The notes beneath the pieces are model-generated. The model searched no databases. It saw only the letters and a program-made list of their open reading frames with translations, and had not been told where the DNA came from. A stretch of DNA of 64,000 nt from Nitrosomonas supralitoralis (lineage in GTDB: Bacteria; Pseudomonadota; Gammaproteobacteria; Burkholderiales; Nitrosomonadaceae), in assembly GCF_003011925.2 (NCBI RefSeq), contig NZ_PXXU01000012.1:1-64000 (forward strand), written 5' to 3'. Positions 4,653 to 42,979 of this stretch are shown piece by piece. Made by a program: the position numbers and the translations under genes. Positions within the stretch are counted from its first letter, which is position 1. Every line of letters begins with the position of its first letter.

Positions 4653-6350
4653 ATGGAACATAACATTACCCTGATCACTACAATTGCAGCAGGCTTTGGC
4701 TTAGCTTTGATTTTTGGCTTTATTGCTGAAAAGCTAAAAACACCTGCACTGGTTGGCTATTTATTGGCCGGAATTGCAATCGGTCCTGCAACACCAGGAT
4801 TTGTCGCAGATATCGGCATTGCCTCACAATTAGCCGAAATCGGTGTAATGTTGCTGATGTTTGGTGTCGGGTTGCATTTTTCCTTGAGTGATCTATTAGC
4901 TGTCAAGCGCATCGCTCTGCCGGGTGCAATAGTGCAAATGACTGTTGCGACTCTACTGGGTATCGCTTTGGCTGATTGGTGGGGCTGGGATTTTGGCGCA
5001 GGACTGGTTCTAGGCTTATCGCTATCCTGTGCCAGCACGGTCGTGCTCCTTAAAGCAGTTGAATCGCGAGGATTACTGGACACCATGACCGGCCGCATTG
5101 CGGTTGGCTGGTTGATTGTTGAAGATTTAGTGACGGTCCTGATTCTAGTGCTTCTGCCATCATTTGCAACTCTGTTGGGAGGATCAAACGGAACTGAAAC
5201 TGCAGCAGAGCCTATGTGGCAAACGATTGGAATCACTTTGCTGCTGGTTTCAGCTTTTATCGCTTTCATGTTCATTGTTGGGTTGCGCGTATTGCCCTGG
5301 CTGTTATGGCAGGTTGCTCGTACGGGTTCACGCGAACTATTCACGCTGGCTGTTGTTGCCGCCGCCATTTGTATTGCCTATGGTGCTGCAGCATTATTTA
5401 ATGTGTCATTTGCATTAGGTGCCTTTTTTGCAGGTATGGTCATGCGTGAATCAAAATTCAGCCATCGCGCTGCGGAAGAATCTCTACCACTACGTGATGC
5501 TTTTGCTGTGTTGTTTTTTGTTTCCGTTGGCATGTTGTTTGATCCTGCCGTATTAATCGATGAGCCTATGCGGGTTTTAGCTGTGGTCGCGATAATTATT
5601 GTGGGAAAGTCAATAGCCGCCATGTTGCTGGTTCTGATACTGCGATATCCGCTCAATACTTCATTAACAGTGGCTGCCAGTCTCGGGCAAATTGGAGAAT
5701 TTTCATTTATTCTGGCAGGATTGGGGTTATCACTTGAATTGATGCCAGCTGAAGGAATGAGCCTGGTGCTTGCTGGCGCGTTAATTTCTATCGCTTTTAA
5801 TCCGATTGCATTCGCGGTTATTGTGCCCGTCCGTAATTGGATTTTGAAACATTCTGCCGTGGCACGCAAATATGAAAGTCGCGATGATCCATATGCTGAA
5901 CTGCCCATGAGTACCGAGCGCAAATACCTGCAGGGTCAGGTTGTTCTCGTCGGCTATGGCCACGTAGGTGAGCGCATTGGACAGGCCCTTAAAGACCAGG
6001 ATATTCCGTTTGTCGTTGCTGAGCAAAATCGTGAACTGGTTCAGGATTTGCGAAAGCAGGATATTAATGCAGTATCCGGTGATGCGACAGAACCTTCGGT
6101 ATTAATCCAGGCACATATTACAGATGCGGCAATGCTGGTTATTGCAACCCCTGATCCATTAAATATTCGTCAAATGATTGATACTGCGCGCACCTTAAAT
6201 CCTGCAATCGAAATTGTATTACGTACCCGCAATGTAGATGAAACAACATTGCTTCGCAAGGACAACGTTGGCACCGTATTTTTCAGTGAAGAGGAGCTTG
6301 CTAAAAGCATGACTCATCATATATTGCAACGCTTTGATACAAAAACCTAA
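4653..6350 (+). CDS. ybaL: CPA2-family cation:proton antiporter with TrkA-N domain (YbaL/KefB-like)
   Basis: Inner-membrane monovalent cation/proton antiporter. The 565-residue product has about 12-13 membrane segments forming the Na+/H+ exchanger core (about 5-390). A cytosolic Rossmann TrkA-N (RCK-type) regulatory domain follows (about 415-540), with the dinucleotide fold VVLVGYGHVGERIG. The opening LVGYLLAGIAIGPATPGFVAD and the stretch ASTVVLLKAVE closely match what I recall of E. coli YbaL, more than KefB/KefC, and its length fits YbaL (about 558). Substrate (K+ or Na+) cannot be told from sequence. A same-strand small hypothetical gene follows 67 bp later. Confidence 0.88.
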   Translation: MEHNITLITTIAAGFGLALIFGFIAEKLKTPALVGYLLAGIAIGPATPGFVADIGIASQLAEIGVMLLMFGVGLHFSLSDLLAVKRIALPGAIVQMTVATLLGIALADWWGWDFGAGLVLGLSLSCASTVVLLKAVESRGLLDTMTGRIAVGWLIVEDLVTVLILVLLPSFATLLGGSNGTETAAEPMWQTIGITLLLVSAFIAFMFIVGLRVLPWLLWQVARTGSRELFTLAVVAAAICIAYGAAALFNVSFALGAFFAGMVMRESKFSHRAAEESLPLRDAFAVLFFVSVGMLFDPAVLIDEPMRVLAVVAIIIVGKSIAAMLLVLILRYPLNTSLTVAASLGQIGEFSFILAGLGLSLELMPAEGMSLVLAGALISIAFNPIAFAVIVPVRNWILKHSAVARKYESRDDPYAELPMSTERKYLQGQVVLVGYGHVGERIGQALKDQDIPFVVAEQNRELVQDLRKQDINAVSGDATEPSVLIQAHITDAAMLVIATPDPLNIRQMIDTARTLNPAIEIVLRTRNVDETTLLRKDNVGTVFFSEEELAKSMTHHILQRFDTKT

Positions 6351-6417
6351 ACGGACACAATAAAACACCAAGTAGAATTGTTTACATAATAATTCCAACA
6401 ATAATGAGATCGACGTA

Positions 6418-6720
6418 ATGATAGAACAGATATATGTAGGTATTGATCTTGATGAAAATGAGGGGCTCACCCATCTTGGTCGCATCGTGCGTGATGCCTG
6501 GGTGTTCAGTATTTTGCCGGAATCCGAAACTTGCGCAGGCTGGAGTGGTGCGCAAATGCAATCTTTGTATGAAAAAGTCTACGCTGCCTGGGAACCCTAT
6601 GCACATCTGCCTAGCCGTTTACCAGATGAGCTACGTGAAAAACATGCACGACTATATGAACAAGCCATTATAAACGCGAAAAAGAAAGGCTGGGACACCG
6701 AGTTGGATGAAGATGACTAA
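6418..6720 (+). CDS. Small hypothetical protein, 100 aa
   Basis: Unrecognised soluble protein. The sequence is balanced and codon-like throughout, rich in acidic residues at both ends (IDLDENEG near the N-terminus and ELDEDD at the C-terminus), with a predicted amphipathic helix in the second half (LREKHARLYEQAIINAKKKG). No cysteine-pair or membrane motif. It starts at ATG 6418 with only a weak GAG-type ribosome binding site. Its TAA overlaps by 4 nt the stop codon of the convergent gene on the opposite strand, so the two genes share their 3' ends with no terminator between. It could be the last gene of the antiporter transcript. Confidence 0.65.
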   Translation: MIEQIYVGIDLDENEGLTHLGRIVRDAWVFSILPESETCAGWSGAQMQSLYEKVYAAWEPYAHLPSRLPDELREKHARLYEQAIINAKKKGWDTELDEDD

Positions 6721-37085: not shown

Positions 37086-37496
37086 ATGGATACACATCCT
37101 AAGCAATCGAACACAAGGAGATGCCAGTTCATTCAGTTGTTAAGCAATGTTGATGGATACTGGGTAAATGTGCTCGGAAACAAGATCTTCCATGATCTTA
37201 ATTATTACGATCTTTTTACACAAATGTGGCTGAGGGTCAACACAACTGCCAACGATTCATTCAGAAAATCTGAGCTATACACGCTTATGCCTAATATCAG
37301 CCAGCGAACAGCCGTCAAATATGTACAGATTGCAATCGATCACGGTTTGCTTTTAGAGCATACGGATTCAGAGGATCTGCGATCTAAGCGAATTACTATG
37401 TCCCACGACCTCAAGCAGAAAATTGAAAAATTCCTCGATTATTCAATTTCGGTTTTCGAAGCACTGCCTTCGGCATCTTCGAAAGAAAAACTTTAA
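37086..37496 (+). CDS. Small winged-helix-like protein, possible MarR-type regulator
   Basis: 136 residues. The middle part looks like a helix-turn-helix with wing: a helix pair (FRKSELYTLMPNISQRTAVKYVQIAIDHGLL) followed by a beta-hairpin-like stretch (EHTDSEDLRSKRITMSHDLKQ), then a C-terminal helix. This is the layout of MarR-type proteins, though I cannot match it to a named family. It is divergently transcribed from the desaturase, and a palindrome lies between. A role in controlling the desaturase is plausible but inferred from context only. Confidence 0.6.
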   Translation: MDTHPKQSNTRRCQFIQLLSNVDGYWVNVLGNKIFHDLNYYDLFTQMWLRVNTTANDSFRKSELYTLMPNISQRTAVKYVQIAIDHGLLLEHTDSEDLRSKRITMSHDLKQKIEKFLDYSISVFEALPSASSKEKL

Positions 37497-38320
37497 ATCC
37501 TATAGATCCGCTCAATAAATAATTCTAATTTTTAATGATTCTGCAAACCATAAATTGACGCAAGAATCATTAAAGACAAGACACTGCATGAACGTGGCAG
37601 GCAAGTAATTCAACCTTCGCGAGCGCAGCGAAATTCTGCGCAAATATTATAATAATGGAATTGAGCGACATGCTTTGAAGAAAGTTATCTCACTTAATCA
37701 AACAGGTAGCAAACCCAGTTTAAACGAAGAGCGGAAGTTGAAATTGTAACGACTTTTTTTATGATTAAGTCCTGAGAAGCTAAAATTAGATTTTTCATCT
37801 GCAGAATCATGTAGCGGTAAGTCTATGATTGAACGGGAACGTGGCATATCCCTGCTGATACGCACTGTAGGTATTTATTAATCTTGTAGCCTCACCCGCA
37901 GAAGGAATTCCAACGCGATTCCATCTGCTTGTTTTCAAACGACTCCAGCCAAAGAAACAGGAATTTTGATCCTTAGGGTTTCAATTTACTCTATCTTGCT
38001 GCAGACGCTAGGGATCCAAACCTAAAAAACATAACACTACTTTTTCTGATCACGTTGACTCCAATCCCGATACTCCTCTTTTCAGGAAGATACGGATAGT
38101 TGACAATCCCCAAGTCCTTCGATAGTCTCCATGCACAGATTGGATTTTGTATTTATGCACACTCACCATGTTCTGAATAAATTGAAGAAAGTGTTGTCAA
38201 AGTGCCACAACTATTATCTCATGCCTTCCATAATCAGCTAACCTCGGTTTTGTGCAATACGTAAAATACATTCATTTCATCGAATCAACCACAATAATAT
38301 ATTAATTTAAAAAGGAGAAA
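37497..38320. other. Intergenic region with possible gene relics
   Basis: About 820 bp without an intact gene. An open stretch without start codon near 37610-37750 (plus) reads FNLRERSEILRKYYNNGIER and continues to a TAA. A second near 37803-37881 (plus) reads ESCSGKSMIERERGISLL, reminiscent of GTPase-type translation factors. Both could be remnants of decayed genes. No tRNA, repeat or terminator was recognised. The final part holds the rubrerythrin promoter and its AAGGAG ribosome-binding site. Confidence 0.4.
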
Positions 38321-38743
38321 ATGATGGAACTTAAAGGATCTCAAACTGAAAGCAATCTTAAGGCCGCTTTTGCTGGAGAATCTCAAGCTAATCGGCGTTA
38401 TTTATATTTTGCAGCTAAAGCGGATGTAGAGGGACAAAATGATGTAGCTGCTGTATTTCGTTCTACCGCTGAAGGCGAAACCGGTCATGCACATGGTCAT
38501 TTGGAATATCTTGAGAGCTGCGGTGATCCGGCTACCGGCATGCCATTCGGTGCCTCACGTGACAACTTAAAAACCGCCATTGCCGGTGAAACGCACGAAT
38601 ATACCGACATGTATCCCGGCATGGCAAAAACAGCTCGCGACGAAGGTTTTGACGAAGTTGCCGACTGGTTCGAAACACTGGCTAAGGCTGAACGTTCACA
38701 CGCCAATCGATTCCAGCGCGCATTAGATAGCTTGACTGATTAA
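38321..38743 (+). CDS. Rubrerythrin (diiron peroxidase, without rubredoxin domain)
   Basis: 140-residue ferritin-like diiron protein used against peroxide. Iron-binding glutamates and histidine appear as [39 protein letters not shown] and [12 protein letters not shown] in the usual four-helix order. Classical rubrerythrins add a C-terminal rubredoxin with CxxC pairs; that domain is absent here, so electrons must come from another donor. The start is ATG 38321 (or the adjacent 38324) after AAGGAG. It heads a same-strand set with an Fe-S oxidoreductase, DUF3501 and CNP1-like gene, and a hairpin (38780-38817) lies in the spacer after it. Confidence 0.93.
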
Positions 38744-38856
38744 TTCATTGCGCTATCACATCGTTCCTAGTCAGAGTCAGCGGGGTTTGACAGATTGAGC
38801 TTCTGGTTAAATCCCGCCAATACTTTATTCGAAATTTTTGATACGAAAAAAACATT

Positions 38857-40227
38857 ATGACCACCCGTGAAGGCAGTCTCGAAGCTCCCAAACGTTATCC
38901 AATCGATTGGAAGAATCCTGATTTTTATGATGAAACCAGCCTAAATCAGGAACTGGAACGGGTTTTTGATATTTGTCAGGGATGCCGGCGCTGCGTCAAT
39001 TTATGTACAGCCTTTCCACGTCTGTTTGACCTCATTGATGATAGTGCGACAGGTGAATTGGATAGTGTCAATAAAACACAATTCTGGGAAGTGGTTGATC
39101 GCTGCTATCTCTGCGACATGTGTTTCATGACTAAATGTCCTTATGTGCCGCCACACGAATGGAACATTGATTTCCCGCATTTAATGCTCCGTGCAAAAGC
39201 AGTCAAATATAAGTACAAAGGTGCAGGATTTCGTGACAGACTGCTTTCAAATACCGATTTAATGGGTAAATTGGCCACCATTCCTGTCGTAGTTCAAACA
39301 GTAAATGCAGTGAACAAAACGCCTATTACTCGCAAGTTAATGGATGGCATGCTGGGCATTCATGCCGATAGAAAATTGCCAGAATATGCGACCAAAACAT
39401 TTCGCTCAAGTGCTGAGCCTGGTCCTGCTTTCCCCGTTATCAATGGAATGCGCACCCCTGGAAAAGTTGCTATTTACGCAACCTGTTACATTAACTATAA
39501 CGAACCCGGTATTGGACACGATTTATTAAAAATCCTGGAACATAACGAAATCTTCACCTGCTTGGTAGAAAAAGAAGCCTGCTGCGGAATGCCTAAGCTG
39601 GAATTGGGTGACTTGGAAGCGGTAGAAAAGCTTAAAAATGAAAACATTCCACATTTATTAAAACTCGCTCAAGAGGGATATGCCATTCTCTCTGCAGTGC
39701 CTTCTTGCACGCTGATGTATAAGCAAGAATTGCCACTATTATTTCCAGATGATGAAGCAGTGCATACAGTTGCTGCTGCAATGTTTGATCCGTTTGAATA
39801 TTTGGTATTAAGGAATCAGGATAATTTACTCAAAAAGGATTTCAAGAAACCCCTTGGCACTGTGGCTTATCATATCCCTTGTCATCAACGAGTACAGAAC
39901 ATTGGAAAAAAAACGCGCGATATACTGCAACTCATTCCGGAAACAACCATAAATACCGTTGAGCGCTGCTCAGGGCATGATGGCACCTGGGGTGTTAAAA
40001 GCGAGCATTTTGCAGATTCCATGAAAATAGGCCGCCCCGTCTTCAAACAAATGGCTGCGTCGGATCCAAATTACATCAGCTCAGACTGCGCTATTGCTGC
40101 GCGGCATATAGAGCAAGGTATTGGTGAAAGTAAAGCAGAGAAGCTACACCCACTTACTTTGTTGCGCATAGCTTACGATGCTGACGCTGAAATGCAGCCC
40201 ACCGAAGACCTTAAACCGATTACCTAA
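38857..40227 (+). CDS. Fe-S oxidoreductase with two 4Fe-4S motifs and CCG (HdrB-like) domains
   Basis: 456-residue soluble protein of the GlpC/heterodisulfide-reductase-like class. Two ferredoxin motifs are clear: C40-x2-C43-x2-C46-x3-C50 and C83-x2-C86-x2-C89-x4-C94. Two cysteine-rich CCG-type domains follow; the first contains EKEACCGMPKLELG (about residue 245) and the second has VERCSGHDGTWG (about 370), where the CC pair is reduced to one cysteine. Electron carrier role inferred. The gene order with rubrerythrin upstream and DUF3501 downstream suggests it supplies electrons in a peroxide-linked pathway, but this is not shown. Confidence 0.85.
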   Translation: MTTREGSLEAPKRYPIDWKNPDFYDETSLNQELERVFDICQGCRRCVNLCTAFPRLFDLIDDSATGELDSVNKTQFWEVVDRCYLCDMCFMTKCPYVPPHEWNIDFPHLMLRAKAVKYKYKGAGFRDRLLSNTDLMGKLATIPVVVQTVNAVNKTPITRKLMDGMLGIHADRKLPEYATKTFRSSAEPGPAFPVINGMRTPGKVAIYATCYINYNEPGIGHDLLKILEHNEIFTCLVEKEACCGMPKLELGDLEAVEKLKNENIPHLLKLAQEGYAILSAVPSCTLMYKQELPLLFPDDEAVHTVAAAMFDPFEYLVLRNQDNLLKKDFKKPLGTVAYHIPCHQRVQNIGKKTRDILQLIPETTINTVERCSGHDGTWGVKSEHFADSMKIGRPVFKQMAASDPNYISSDCAIAARHIEQGIGESKAEKLHPLTLLRIAYDADAEMQPTEDLKPIT

Positions 40228-40250
40228 GTTCATTTTTAATAGAGAAACAC

Positions 40251-40841
40251 ATGGCTACAATTACTCGTGAAGATTTGTTGACACTGGAAGCCTATTCCAA
40301 GATTCGTAAGGATTTTCGCGCTCAAGTGATGGCACATAAAAAAAAGCGCAAAATTTCCCTGGGAGAAAATATTACGATTATCTTCGAGGACGCTGTCACC
40401 ATTCGCTATCAAATTCAAGAGATGTTGTACGTCGAACGCATCTTTCACGAAGATGAAATCATGCACGAACTTGAAACATACACACCGTTGATTCCTGATG
40501 GACATAACTGGAAGGCTACGATGTTGATTGAATATCCAGATCCTGCAGTACGCGCCGTTAAACTGGCCGGTTTAATTGGCATAGAAGATAAAGTGTGGGT
40601 CAGCATTGCTGGGCATACACCCGTATATGCCATTGCTGACGAAGACCTGGAACGGGAAAATAGTGAAAAAACCTCATCAGTTCATTTTCTTCGCTTTGAA
40701 CTCACTTCCGAAATGATCCAATCGCTTCATCATGGTGCAGTCTTAAGTATTGGCGTTGATCATCCCGCCTATCAAGCATCCATAGATTCTGTTGACAGTC
40801 ATGTTCTCACCTCATTGTTGAAAGACTTATCAGGCGCATGA
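40251..40841 (+). CDS. DUF3501 family protein
   Basis: 196-residue soluble protein matching the DUF3501 family, which I recall as typically encoded next to this rubrerythrin/Fe-S oxidoreductase pair. It starts MATITREDLLTLEAYSKIRKDFR and has a mixed alpha/beta pattern with a conserved aromatic/charged middle (IRYQIQEMLYVERIFHEDEIMHELETY). No cysteine pairs, membrane helix or known catalytic motif is visible. It overlaps the next gene by 4 nt (ATGA), indicating translational coupling. Function unknown. Confidence 0.8.
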   Translation: MATITREDLLTLEAYSKIRKDFRAQVMAHKKKRKISLGENITIIFEDAVTIRYQIQEMLYVERIFHEDEIMHELETYTPLIPDGHNWKATMLIEYPDPAVRAVKLAGLIGIEDKVWVSIAGHTPVYAIADEDLERENSEKTSSVHFLRFELTSEMIQSLHHGAVLSIGVDHPAYQASIDSVDSHVLTSLLKDLSGA

Positions 40842-41344
40842 AACGGATTTGCTTATTACTCTGCGCCATATTGTTTGCCTGTGCCAAGCCTCCTTTCAAG
40901 GATCAATTTGAAAGCGATAAGCCATGGATTGAGCAATTAACTCAACTCCCTGCTTATCCGAATGCCACAGACCTGATGGAGTTCGACACAGGAGCTGTCT
41001 CCAGCAATCATTATTTGGTTGACAGAAATTCCATTAGTATTGGTGAAGATGGCGTGATTCGCTTTACTTTAGTCGTCAAATCGTCATCAGGTGCCCTCAA
41101 TGTCAGTTACGAAGGCATACGCTGCGCTACCAGCGAACGAAAATTGTATGCGCTCGGTAGAGATGATAAAACCTGGATACAACCCCGCGAATCGGAGTGG
41201 CAAAAGCTTGAATTGGTCCGGCAATTTAACGCACAGCGTGAGTTGGCCAAAAATATCTTTTGCCCGCATCGACAAATTGTAAGTAGCACAGAAGACGCGA
41301 TTCAGGCTCTAAAAGCCGGGATACATCGCAACATTTTCCGTTAA
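40838..41344 (+). CDS. CNP1-like family protein, probable lipoprotein
   Basis: 168 residues with an N-terminal hydrophobic leader and a lipobox-like end (AILFACAK, Cys15), so it is probably a lipoprotein. The body (PWIEQLTQLPAYPNATDLMEF, VRFTLVVKSSSGALNVSYEGIRCAT) matches my recollection of the CNP1-like family of betaproteobacteria, which has no established function. Start ATGA overlaps the DUF3501 stop. It is the last gene of the rubrerythrin set. A 16-bp perfect palindrome follows 29 bp after the stop. Confidence 0.78.
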   Translation: MKRICLLLCAILFACAKPPFKDQFESDKPWIEQLTQLPAYPNATDLMEFDTGAVSSNHYLVDRNSISIGEDGVIRFTLVVKSSSGALNVSYEGIRCATSERKLYALGRDDKTWIQPRESEWQKLELVRQFNAQRELAKNIFCPHRQIVSSTEDAIQALKAGIHRNIFR

Positions 41345-41372
41345 AGAGTGAAGTTAAAACTCATATCTTATT

Positions 41373-41388
41373 GATATTATATAATATC
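41373..41388. promoter_or_regulatory. Perfect 16-bp AT palindrome upstream of the Rh channel gene
   Basis: GATATTATATAATATC at 41373-41388 is a perfect palindrome in the 261-bp spacer between the CNP1-like gene and the Rh channel gene. It is about 220 bp before the Rh start. A site of this form could be an operator or part of a weak terminator for the upstream genes; AT-rich palindromes also arise by chance. No T-run follows. Role unknown. Confidence 0.35.
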
Positions 41389-41605
41389 TTTCAGTAATCT
41401 TTATTCCAATAAACAATGGCTTTTCTTCTGTGCCAGTAGGTTTGTGTGGCGCAGTCTTTAATTATTTCCCTAATCCCTATTGTCTTTAAGGTAATTAAAG
41501 TTCACACTCCCTTTGGGGTTTCTAATTGTCTTAACATCTTACACCCCTTCCTCTGAATCTCGTCGAGGATAAACCCGAGAAATCACTAAAATAAGGAAGA
41601 ATCAC

Positions 41606-42979
41606 ATGAATAAAAGCTTTAATTCGATAATATCGGGAGCAATCAGTCTGCTTCTCCTGAGTTTCAGCGGCTTAGTCAGTGCAGAAGCGCCCGTTTTAAG
41701 TGAAGCGCGTGTTGTCGCGCAATATAATTACATCATTCATATTTTAGCCATGCTTTTGATTGGCTTTGGTTTCTTAATGGTATTTGTGCGCCGATATGGC
41801 TTTGGTGCAGTAACCGGAACTTATCTGGTTGTCGCGGTAGGGCTTCCACTCTACATTCTGTTACGTGCAAACGGAATTTTTGGACACCAGCTATCGCCTC
41901 ATACACTTGATTCTCTGTTATTTGCTGAATTATCCGTCGCCACAGCCCTTATCGCCATGGGTGCGGTCTTGGGCCGTTTACGTGTGTTTCAGTACGCATT
42001 GCTGGCAGCTTTAATTGTTCCGCTTTATTTATTGAACGAATGGATCGTACTTGATGATGCGATCGGCTATACCACTGGGTTTCAGGACACTGCCGGTTCG
42101 GTGGTGATTCATGCTTTTGGTGCTTATTTTGGTCTGAGTATGTCAATCGTCCTGACCACTGAGTACCAACGCAGCAAGTTGATTGAATCCGATCATACTT
42201 CTGATCGGTTCGCCATGTTGGGTTCTATGGTGTTATGGCTGTTCTGGCCCAGTTTTGCCACTGCGCTAGTGCCATTAGAGAATATGCCACAAACGGTAGT
42301 TAACACATTGTTAGCATTGTCTGGCGCAACCATCGCTACATATTTCCTAAGCTCCAAATTGCATCACGGCAAAACCTCCATGGTAGACATGGCTAATGCT
42401 GCATTGGCTGGTGGCGTAGCTATCGGCTCCGTATGTGATGTAGTATCTCCTACCGGAGCATTCGGTATCGGTTTGCTCGCCGGAATACTCTCCGTTCTGG
42501 GCTATGTCATTTTGCAACCATTACTGGAGTCAAAATTTAAAATTATAGACACCTGCGGTGTGCACAATTTGCACGGCATGCCCGGATTATTAGGCGGCCT
42601 CAGTGCATTCCTGGTAGTTCCCGGTATCGCAATTGCGCAGTTTAATGGCATAATGATAACGCTTATCATCGCGATTGTAGGTGGCTTGATCGCAGGCGCC
42701 ATCATCAAGGCAACCGGCACCACTCGTGAGCCTTATGAAGATAGCGTAGAATTTACACATCTTGCTGGTCCTGAGACAGAAAAACTTCCGGAGCAACTGC
42801 AAACGCGTGTCGAAGCTCTGGAAATTCATACCTCTGCAGCAAAGCCGCAATCTCCGGTTGAATCTCCTGAGACCAAGGCATTGATTGCTCGACTGGAGTC
42901 CCGAGTTATGCTGTTAGAAAACAATATTGCTGCGACACAAAATCGTGAGGCTGGGGAAAAGCCGGAGCCCACTGCATAA
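41606..42979 (+). CDS. rh50: Rh-type ammonium/ammonia channel (Rh50-like)
   Basis: Rhesus-family NH3/NH4+ channel of the inner membrane, the type known from Nitrosomonas europaea in place of AmtB. The 457-residue product has a signal-peptide-like N-terminus (cleaved near SAEA) and 11-12 membrane helices. Signature segments are DTAGSVVIHAFGAYFGL with channel His169, and DTCGVHNLHGMPGLLGG with channel His323, the twin histidines of the conduction path. The last about 65 residues are a cytosolic tail with two leucine-rich coiled-coil-like segments (LQTRVEALEI and IARLESRVMLLENNI), which may be unusual. AAGGAAG precedes the ATG. A MITE-like element starts 13 bp after the stop. Confidence 0.94.
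   Translation: MNKSFNSIISGAISLLLLSFSGLVSAEAPVLSEARVVAQYNYIIHILAMLLIGFGFLMVFVRRYGFGAVTGTYLVVAVGLPLYILLRANGIFGHQLSPHTLDSLLFAELSVATALIAMGAVLGRLRVFQYALLAALIVPLYLLNEWIVLDDAIGYTTGFQDTAGSVVIHAFGAYFGLSMSIVLTTEYQRSKLIESDHTSDRFAMLGSMVLWLFWPSFATALVPLENMPQTVVNTLLALSGATIATYFLSSKLHHGKTSMVDMANAALAGGVAIGSVCDVVSPTGAFGIGLLAGILSVLGYVILQPLLESKFKIIDTCGVHNLHGMPGLLGGLSAFLVVPGIAIAQFNGIMITLIIAIVGGLIAGAIIKATGTTREPYEDSVEFTHLAGPETEKLPEQLQTRVEALEIHTSAAKPQSPVESPETKALIARLESRVMLLENNIAATQNREAGEKPEPTA

Follow-up and report, generated by a model that had tools for sequence, protein, structure and literature searches.

Positions 38,321–41,344 of a 64,000-nucleotide stretch of Nitrosomonas supralitoralis DNA (contig NZ_PXXU01000012.1; the whole stretch is called the window below) hold four consecutive genes, coding for a rubrerythrin (RBR), a CCG iron-sulfur (Fe–S) protein (RFO), a DUF3501 protein and a CNP1-family protein. 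The first three of these genes are an aerobic-type rubrerythrin module. A first-pass annotation of this DNA had seen an undescribed redox system here, whereas the set of RBR, RFO and DUF3501 has been in print since 2016 (PMC5114695; articles are cited in this text from excerpts). To this known system we add that the second CCG domain of RFO is changed, that DUF3501 is without a conserved cysteine, and that a stem-loop recurs in the gap between rbr and rfo, which is the main new detail.

All four open reading frames (ORFs) and their families had been annotated, and both the ORF list and Pfam bear this out, with all four on the plus strand (Table 1). Their description as tightly spaced is right for the final three, with 23 nt between rfo and the DUF3501 gene and a 4-nt overlap (ATGA) of the DUF3501 and CNP1 ORFs, but not for rbr and rfo, which are 113 nt apart with the stem-loop in between. 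DUF3501, RBR (E ≤ 0.001) and RFO (E ≤ 1e-60) each occur once in the genome.

Co-occurrence and order of the genes

The distribution of the genes was followed in 274 genomes of the class, with RFO counted at E ≤ 1e-60 and RBR where the match was strong (at least 230 bits). Weaker RBR matches, at most 129 bits among those listed, were excluded, and the number of genomes with RBR thereby went from 134 (E ≤ 0.001) to 118. DUF3501 was present in 119 genomes, RFO likewise in 119 and CNP1 in 49; RBR, RFO and DUF3501 were found all together in 114. DUF3501 and strong RBR shared 116 genomes and were both missing from 153, while DUF3501 occurred without strong RBR in three and strong RBR without DUF3501 in two. 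RFO accompanied strong RBR in 115 of its 118 genomes and was otherwise found in four only. Among the 116 genomes with both DUF3501 and RFO, 113 have the two less than 1 kb apart in the same orientation and the remaining three have them on different contigs; the same distance and orientation applied to RBR and RFO in 115 of 115. The earlier view that RBR, the Fe–S protein and DUF3501 belong together is thus supported by co-occurrence and by adjacency, and a DUF3501 distribution unrelated to that of the other two, which would have refuted it, was not observed.

In genomes G191 and G260 a contig ends inside RFO, and no other part of either genome yielded a strong RBR match; in G208 a contig begins beside RFO, at the place where DUF3501 would be expected. 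A decayed module is present in G164 (locus L141, C70:46000-58000, positions 5726–6702), in which all three genes are fragmented and the DUF3501 part contains stops.

Gene order was compared in 80 loci, the best matches to the query and mostly from betaproteobacteria. The order RBR-RFO-DUF3501 was seen in 68 of them and RBR-DUF3501 with no RFO in between in three; eight were cut by a contig end, and in one (L108) RBR was absent and the RFO match weak. Four of these records (among L038, L045, L052, L058 and L097) are titled as a Bordetella parapertussis metagenome-assembled genome and the fifth as Dehalococcoidia; their loci resemble other betaproteobacterial loci, and the titles look doubtful. 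Across the wider phylum DUF3501 was found in 11 of 200 genomes, two of them already in the class count. RBR and RFO were checked around the nine new DUF3501 loci only, and all nine have the order RBR-RFO-DUF3501.

A recurring stem-loop between rbr and rfo

The whole 113-nt gap of the window has a fold z-score of −2.56 (−2.13 in another run), and 3 of 200 shuffled sequences folded as well. Among 67 rbr-rfo gaps the median z-score is −2.92, and 48 gaps reach −2 or lower. This level was reached far less often upstream of RBR (11/68), inside RFO (3/74) and after DUF3501 (14/80), as well as in control gaps between same-strand genes of the same records and the window (12/94; Fisher p 2e-14), which were taken from our own rough gene calls and are 60–200 nt long, compared to 39–223 nt for the tested gaps. 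Seven of the gaps from the nine phylum-level loci also have z-scores of −2 or lower, one of the nine loci being from the genus of the window.

The printed stems vary in sequence between genera. Within the Nitrosomonas clade (six rows), 5 of 12 stem pairs are changed on both sides, a number reached by 31 of 500 shuffles, and the covariation score was reached by 0 of 500; as the rows are related, these scores lean high. Rfam, searched with positions 37,500–42,000 up to E 1, gave nothing in the rbr-rfo gap, and its only match was SECIS_1 inside rfo. Articles on rubrerythrin together with a terminator or hairpin, judged by title and start of the abstract, included none on the present lineage. A stem-loop that guards the 3′ end of rbr or damps read-through would help to explain the abundance of RBR described below.

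The iron-sulfur protein RFO

Pfam finds PF02754 (CCG) in two stretches of RFO. The protein had been called Hdr-like, but GlpC-like fits better: its best NCBIfam model is GlpC (NF008369), with 242.7 bits at a cut-off of 278, and TIGR03379 gave 177.9 bits, below its cut-off of 279.9. The assignment to COG0247-type CCG proteins nearest to GlpC was made via Pfam, NCBIfam and alignment, not by a COG search. Escherichia coli GlpC is 29% identical to RFO, and the match covers its two ferredoxin-type motifs as well as CCG1, the first CCG domain. Of the 17 cysteines that hold clusters in this GlpC, RFO keeps 15, all of them invariant in 84 of 84 rows and all at positions that are also Cys in GlpC. They are located in the ferredoxin-type motifs (40, 43, 46, 50 and 83, 86, 89, 94), in CCG1 (210, 242, 243, 284) and in the second CCG domain, CCG2 (342, 371, 411).

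Position 372, the second Cys of CCG2 in GlpC, is Ser in 66, Ala in 17 and Ile in one of the 84 rows, and position 414, the last Cys of CCG2 in GlpC, is Ala in 81 and Gly in three. Furthermore, position 374 is His in 83 rows, whereas GlpC has Ile. This pattern comes from the sampled loci (the 80 best matches plus the class and phylum loci), which do not include RFO of Sulfolobus and Aquificae. Because two CCG2 cysteines are missing and position 374 is changed, RFO resembles GlpC without being GlpC itself, and it probably has an altered second CCG cluster or is without the usual one. The direct neighbours differ as well, being RBR and DUF3501 for RFO but glpA and glpB for GlpC.

A Foldseek search with RFO gave matches to LutA, EtfD and HdrB entries; single-sequence and profile searches against PDB sequences gave no match. 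GlpC is the membrane-side subunit that feeds the quinone. As the first-pass annotation had suggested, the Fe–S protein is the natural candidate for the electron donor of RBR. The SECIS_1 match inside rfo (38918–38979; 24 bits, gathering threshold 35) is below threshold and was taken as chance.

DUF3501 and its fusion to RFO

The DUF3501 protein matches PF12007 with an E value of 1.1e-73, and its nearest named relatives are from Nitrosomonas (77–80% identity). Its AlphaFold model (pLDDT 91.5) has the same fold as 3fjv, the crystal structure of a DUF3501 protein (Z 27.3, rmsd 1.5, 54% identity over 193 residues), an entry whose title gives its function as unknown. Weaker matches by fold, to CrdA and GAE domains (Z < 7), did not stand out from many others and were set aside. 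At every window column Cys is present in at most 12% of 94 rows; several acids and one histidine (H171) are invariant. Since no cysteine is conserved, DUF3501 is unlikely to be an electron carrier of the Fe–S, rubredoxin-like or thiol kind.

Five Nitrosomonas loci (L032–L035, L039) have RFO and DUF3501 fused, which are separate in the window. The unfused window groups with the fused L032, L033 and L035 in the RFO tree (support 92/92) and with the fused L032–L035 in the DUF3501 tree (92/83), both values being lower than what the tool itself counts as firm, and the unfused pair of G364 (L152) falls outside these groups in the trees. Compared with L033, the nearest fused relative by RFO, the linker of the window has a 4-nt gap, after which the RFO frame terminates early. 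Likeliest, judged from these sequences, the window pair is a fused gene that was split again; repeated fusion is the less likely alternative. The fusion argues for a contact of DUF3501 with RFO, and the cases in which DUF3501 stays beside RBR although RFO is absent point to a contact with RBR; both contacts would suit DUF3501 as an adaptor.

The rubrerythrin

RBR matches PF02915 (E 3.5e-28). It had been described as a rubrerythrin without a rubredoxin domain, and indeed Pfam gave no rubredoxin match; the classical two-domain rubrerythrin, in contrast, has a C-terminal rubredoxin-like domain. The NCBIfam model RuberyRbr scored 131.4 bits, below its cut-off of 200. The nearest solved chains are 9onm and 4di0, both titled Rubrerythrin, and sulerythrin of Sulfolobus tokodaii (1j30), which aligns with residues 1–138 of 140 (E 2.8e-50) and differs in being archaeal. 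Residues E20, E53, H56, E90, E93, E124 and H127 are invariant in 85 of 85 rows, and the di-iron ligand positions were matched to sulerythrin by alignment. Except where a source is named next, the ligand roles are those which we presume. PDB titles supply them for E53 and E126, and PMC12851003 for Glu92 and Glu95. By homology RBR would be a di-iron peroxidase. Its share of the proteome is about 1.2% in both N. ureae and N. multiformis, and in two ammonia oxidisers it is one of the top ten proteins by abundance; N. europaea is without it (PMC5960693).

CNP1 and neighbouring genes

CNP1 (PF08750, E 4e-46) looks like a mere neighbour and not like a firm member of the redox set, as which it had been listed. 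Among the 274 genomes it is present in 40 of the 119 with DUF3501 and in nine without. Its enrichment is real, since 40 of 49 CNP1 carriers have DUF3501 compared to 79 of 225 non-carriers (Fisher 2e-9). It lies less than 1 kb from DUF3501 in 29 of the 49 carriers; in the other 11 genomes with both genes they are on different contigs (eight) or far apart on one contig (three). CNP1 follows DUF3501 on its 3′ side in 33 of the 80 loci.

Clustering of frequent neighbours was clouded by shadow ORFs, and only ProB, ObgE, RplU, RppH and ProS were taken, proteins which we presume to be correctly named from their sequences. With rppH and proB named in this way and not by a family search, proB is held by 26 of 37 loci with CNP1 versus 3 of 43 without, and rppH, CNP1 and proB occur together in 16 of the 80 loci. 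In G107 (L112), from the same order as the window organism, CNP1 stands between rppH and a convergent proB with the module absent there and DUF3501 2.67 Mb away, while locus L038 has the order rppH-RBR-RFO-DUF3501-CNP1-proB. CNP1 thus looks like an older resident of the rppH-proB site that would have ended up on the downstream side of the module. Neither proB nor rppH was found in the 64-kb window, where CNP1 is still beside the module.

By eye, the N termini of CNP1 proteins look like signal peptides, and the protein looks exported. Nine of 53 copies, including those of L032 and L053, agree with a loosely defined lipobox; the window copy does not. CNP1 had no match in the PDB, and open-licence PMC papers gave no literature on 'CNP1-like'. 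In G247 (L128, C6; 6177–7349) CNP1 is located beside a second full-length single-domain RBR without RFO or DUF3501, and a complete three-gene set is present on another contig of this genome.

An ammonium transporter gene follows the four genes of the window and is also found on the 3′ side of the module in Nitrosomonas loci L032–L034. Upstream of rbr, an ORF of 136 aa (37086–37493) had no Pfam or NCBIfam match, and no counterpart was evident in the 80 related loci.

Table 1 Features of the rbr-rfo-DUF3501 locus, in positions of the window
Feature	Position	Strand	Remarks
rbr, single-domain aerobic-type rubrerythrin	38321-38743	+	140 aa; PF02915 match
rbr-rfo intercistronic stem-loop	38780-38817	+	arms 38780-38791 and 38806-38817; by folding
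rfo (RFO), CCG Fe–S protein, GlpC-like	38857-40227	+	456 aa; PF02754 match
RFO-DUF3501 junction	40228-40250	+	unfused here; fused in five Nitrosomonas loci
DUF3501 protein	40251-40841	+	196 aa; PF12007 match
CNP1-family protein	40838-41344	+	168 aa; PF08750 match
Ammonium transporter gene	41606-42979		261 nt downstream of the four-gene set

Proposed function and alternatives

We favour, with moderate confidence, a peroxidase module in which RBR reduces peroxide, RFO feeds it, DUF3501 docks or assembles, and the stem-loop favours an excess of RBR. The di-iron site of RBR would reduce H2O2, and probably organic hydroperoxides too, in the cytoplasm. Without a rubredoxin domain, RBR would be re-reduced by the GlpC/EtfD-like RFO, in which two ferredoxin-type clusters together with CCG1 may carry electrons from a reduced pool, either a flavoprotein or the quinone pool being candidates. 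DUF3501 would assist RFO and RBR in docking or assembly, the stem-loop after rbr would lead to more RBR than RFO and DUF3501, and the exported-looking CNP1 would merely follow the module.

The near-perfect co-occurrence and the adjacency of the three genes support this reading, and the RFO-DUF3501 fusions, the joint decay in L141, the invariant cysteines of RFO and its fold matches to LutA, EtfD and HdrB count for it too. So do the data on ferriperoxin (Fpx) of Hydrogenobacter thermophilus, a homologue whose peroxidase activity depends on NADPH and NAD(P)H:ferredoxin reductase (FNR) and whose disruptant fails to grow aerobically (PMC3317640). The share of RBR in the two proteomes fits an excess of RBR, as far as the level of RBR alone can tell. 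More tentatively, the genes may code for a complete cytoplasmic peroxidase chain, made up of a membrane-associated RFO linked to quinone or a flavoprotein, a cysteine-free adaptor (DUF3501) and a ratio-setting stem-loop. The CCG2 of RFO would then be remodelled, with three cysteines and a His 374 absent in GlpC, and the stem-loop, kept in position but not in sequence, would set a high ratio of RBR to reductase.

Several observations weigh against the peroxidase module. In vitro, FNR and NADPH sustain the turnover of Fpx in the absence of RFO (PMC3317640). RBR adjoins DUF3501 with no RFO at E ≤ 1e-60 in G064 and G079 (2 of 274 genomes, that of G079 being 81% complete), and the same neighbours have no RFO between them in L087, L100 and L106 (3 of 80 loci). 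RBR is alone in G032 (L135), and RFO-like genes occur without strong RBR or DUF3501 in G116 (L133) and G212 (L134), the latter gene being distant (45% identity). Of the rbr-rfo gaps, 19 of 67 fall short of a z-score of −2. The AlphaFold model of the natural fusion L033 (pTM 0.63) has a low-confidence linker and no fixed arrangement of RFO and DUF3501; it had five alignment rows only for the DUF3501 half, a larger alignment, in which MAFFT had scattered the 27 DUF3501 rows, was left out. An electron source for RFO did not turn up, although no search was aimed at one.

It is possible, if rather unlikely, that FNR or ferredoxin reduces RBR directly in vivo and that RFO and DUF3501 serve elsewhere in the stress response, for example in repair or di-iron loading. 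The turnover of Fpx with FNR and NADPH alone points in this direction, as do the genomes and loci named above that have no RFO beside RBR, and the RBR and DUF3501 of Thermoproteales, which occur without RFO (PMC5114695). Nevertheless, FNR may be a generic in-vitro donor, and direct reduction would leave unexplained why RFO accompanies strong RBR in nearly all genomes (115/118) and is found in so few others. A little less probable to us is that DUF3501 is an assembly factor which inserts iron into RBR or builds its oligomer, instead of serving electron transfer as a docking partner. Such a role would agree with the finding of strong RBR in 116 of the 119 DUF3501 genomes, with the continued presence of DUF3501 beside RBR when RFO is absent, and with its invariant acids and H171 in a protein that has no conserved cysteine, but the five fusions join DUF3501 to RFO and not to RBR, and recombinant Fpx, made alone according to the methods headings, is active (PMC3317640).

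Regarding the stem-loop, we give a rather low probability to an ordinary intrinsic terminator, with rfo, DUF3501 and CNP1 transcribed from a promoter of their own and hence two transcripts. A T run (at least five T in the ten nt behind the stem) is present in 17 of 67 gaps, as a terminator would have it, but 50 lack one, so most of the stems are not plain terminators. Likewise, a weak consensus scan of the window gap found no terminator-like or promoter-like site on the plus strand. A functional unit of all four genes, connecting the removal of peroxide in the cytoplasm with a protein of the envelope, is very improbable, and distribution and synteny led us to reject the cassette including CNP1 as a unit. 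The 4-nt overlap in the window, the frequent place of CNP1 after or near DUF3501 (33/80 loci; 29/49 carriers), its enrichment in DUF3501 genomes and its position beside the module in a window without proB and rppH would suit such a unit. CNP1 is, however, absent from 79 of 119 DUF3501 genomes, and 9 of 49 CNP1 genomes have no DUF3501; G107 keeps it between rppH and proB without the module, proB accompanies it in most loci, and its N terminus is signal-peptide-like.

Significance

How rubrerythrins without rubredoxin are re-reduced, in aerobes and in some mitochondria, rests on the RFO proposal of 2016, and for RBR with DUF3501 but without RFO its authors call re-reduction an open experimental question (PMC5114695). 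With DUF3501 unlikely to be a cysteine-based carrier, the question of RBR re-reduction becomes sharper. The distinctive cluster pattern of RFO can be probed by mutation, the natural fusions are a ready-made RFO-DUF3501 protein for purification, and the stem-loop predicts a stoichiometry of RBR to RFO that can be checked by RNA-seq.

Comparison with known systems

The aerobic-type rubrerythrin system was described by Cardenas, Quatrini and Holmes in 2016 (PMC5114695), who reported RBR, DUF3501 and the Fe–S protein as co-localised and co-occurring, with all three in 185 genomes, named the Fe–S protein RFO and proposed that it compensates for the missing rubredoxin domain. The window has the same three families and belongs to the same lineage, Nitrosomonas spp. 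being named in that paper. Its RBR is of the single-domain sulerythrin/Fpx kind with conserved di-iron ligands, DUF3501 is co-localised, the CCG protein is nearest to GlpC, and the genes co-occur across genomes. In contrast to the paper, which calls RFO and DUF3501 fused in Nitrosomonas spp., they are separate genes in the window. The excerpts of PMC5114695 contain no mention of the stem-loop or of the reduced second CCG domain. The RBR-RFO-DUF3501 system was reported again in PMC7852563 and PMC7760498. Among open-licence PMC papers, mostly screened by listing, no tests of RFO or DUF3501 were found.

Fpx is, like the RBR of the window, a single-domain rubrerythrin of an aerobe, and both papers place it in the same group; its assay contained FNR and NADPH but neither RFO nor DUF3501 (PMC3317640). 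The three-component rubrerythrin system of Andalucia (PMC7050145) consists of the same trio as the window, but there the genes are physically unlinked and the proteins are predicted to be mitochondrial, whereas the trio of the window is adjacent.

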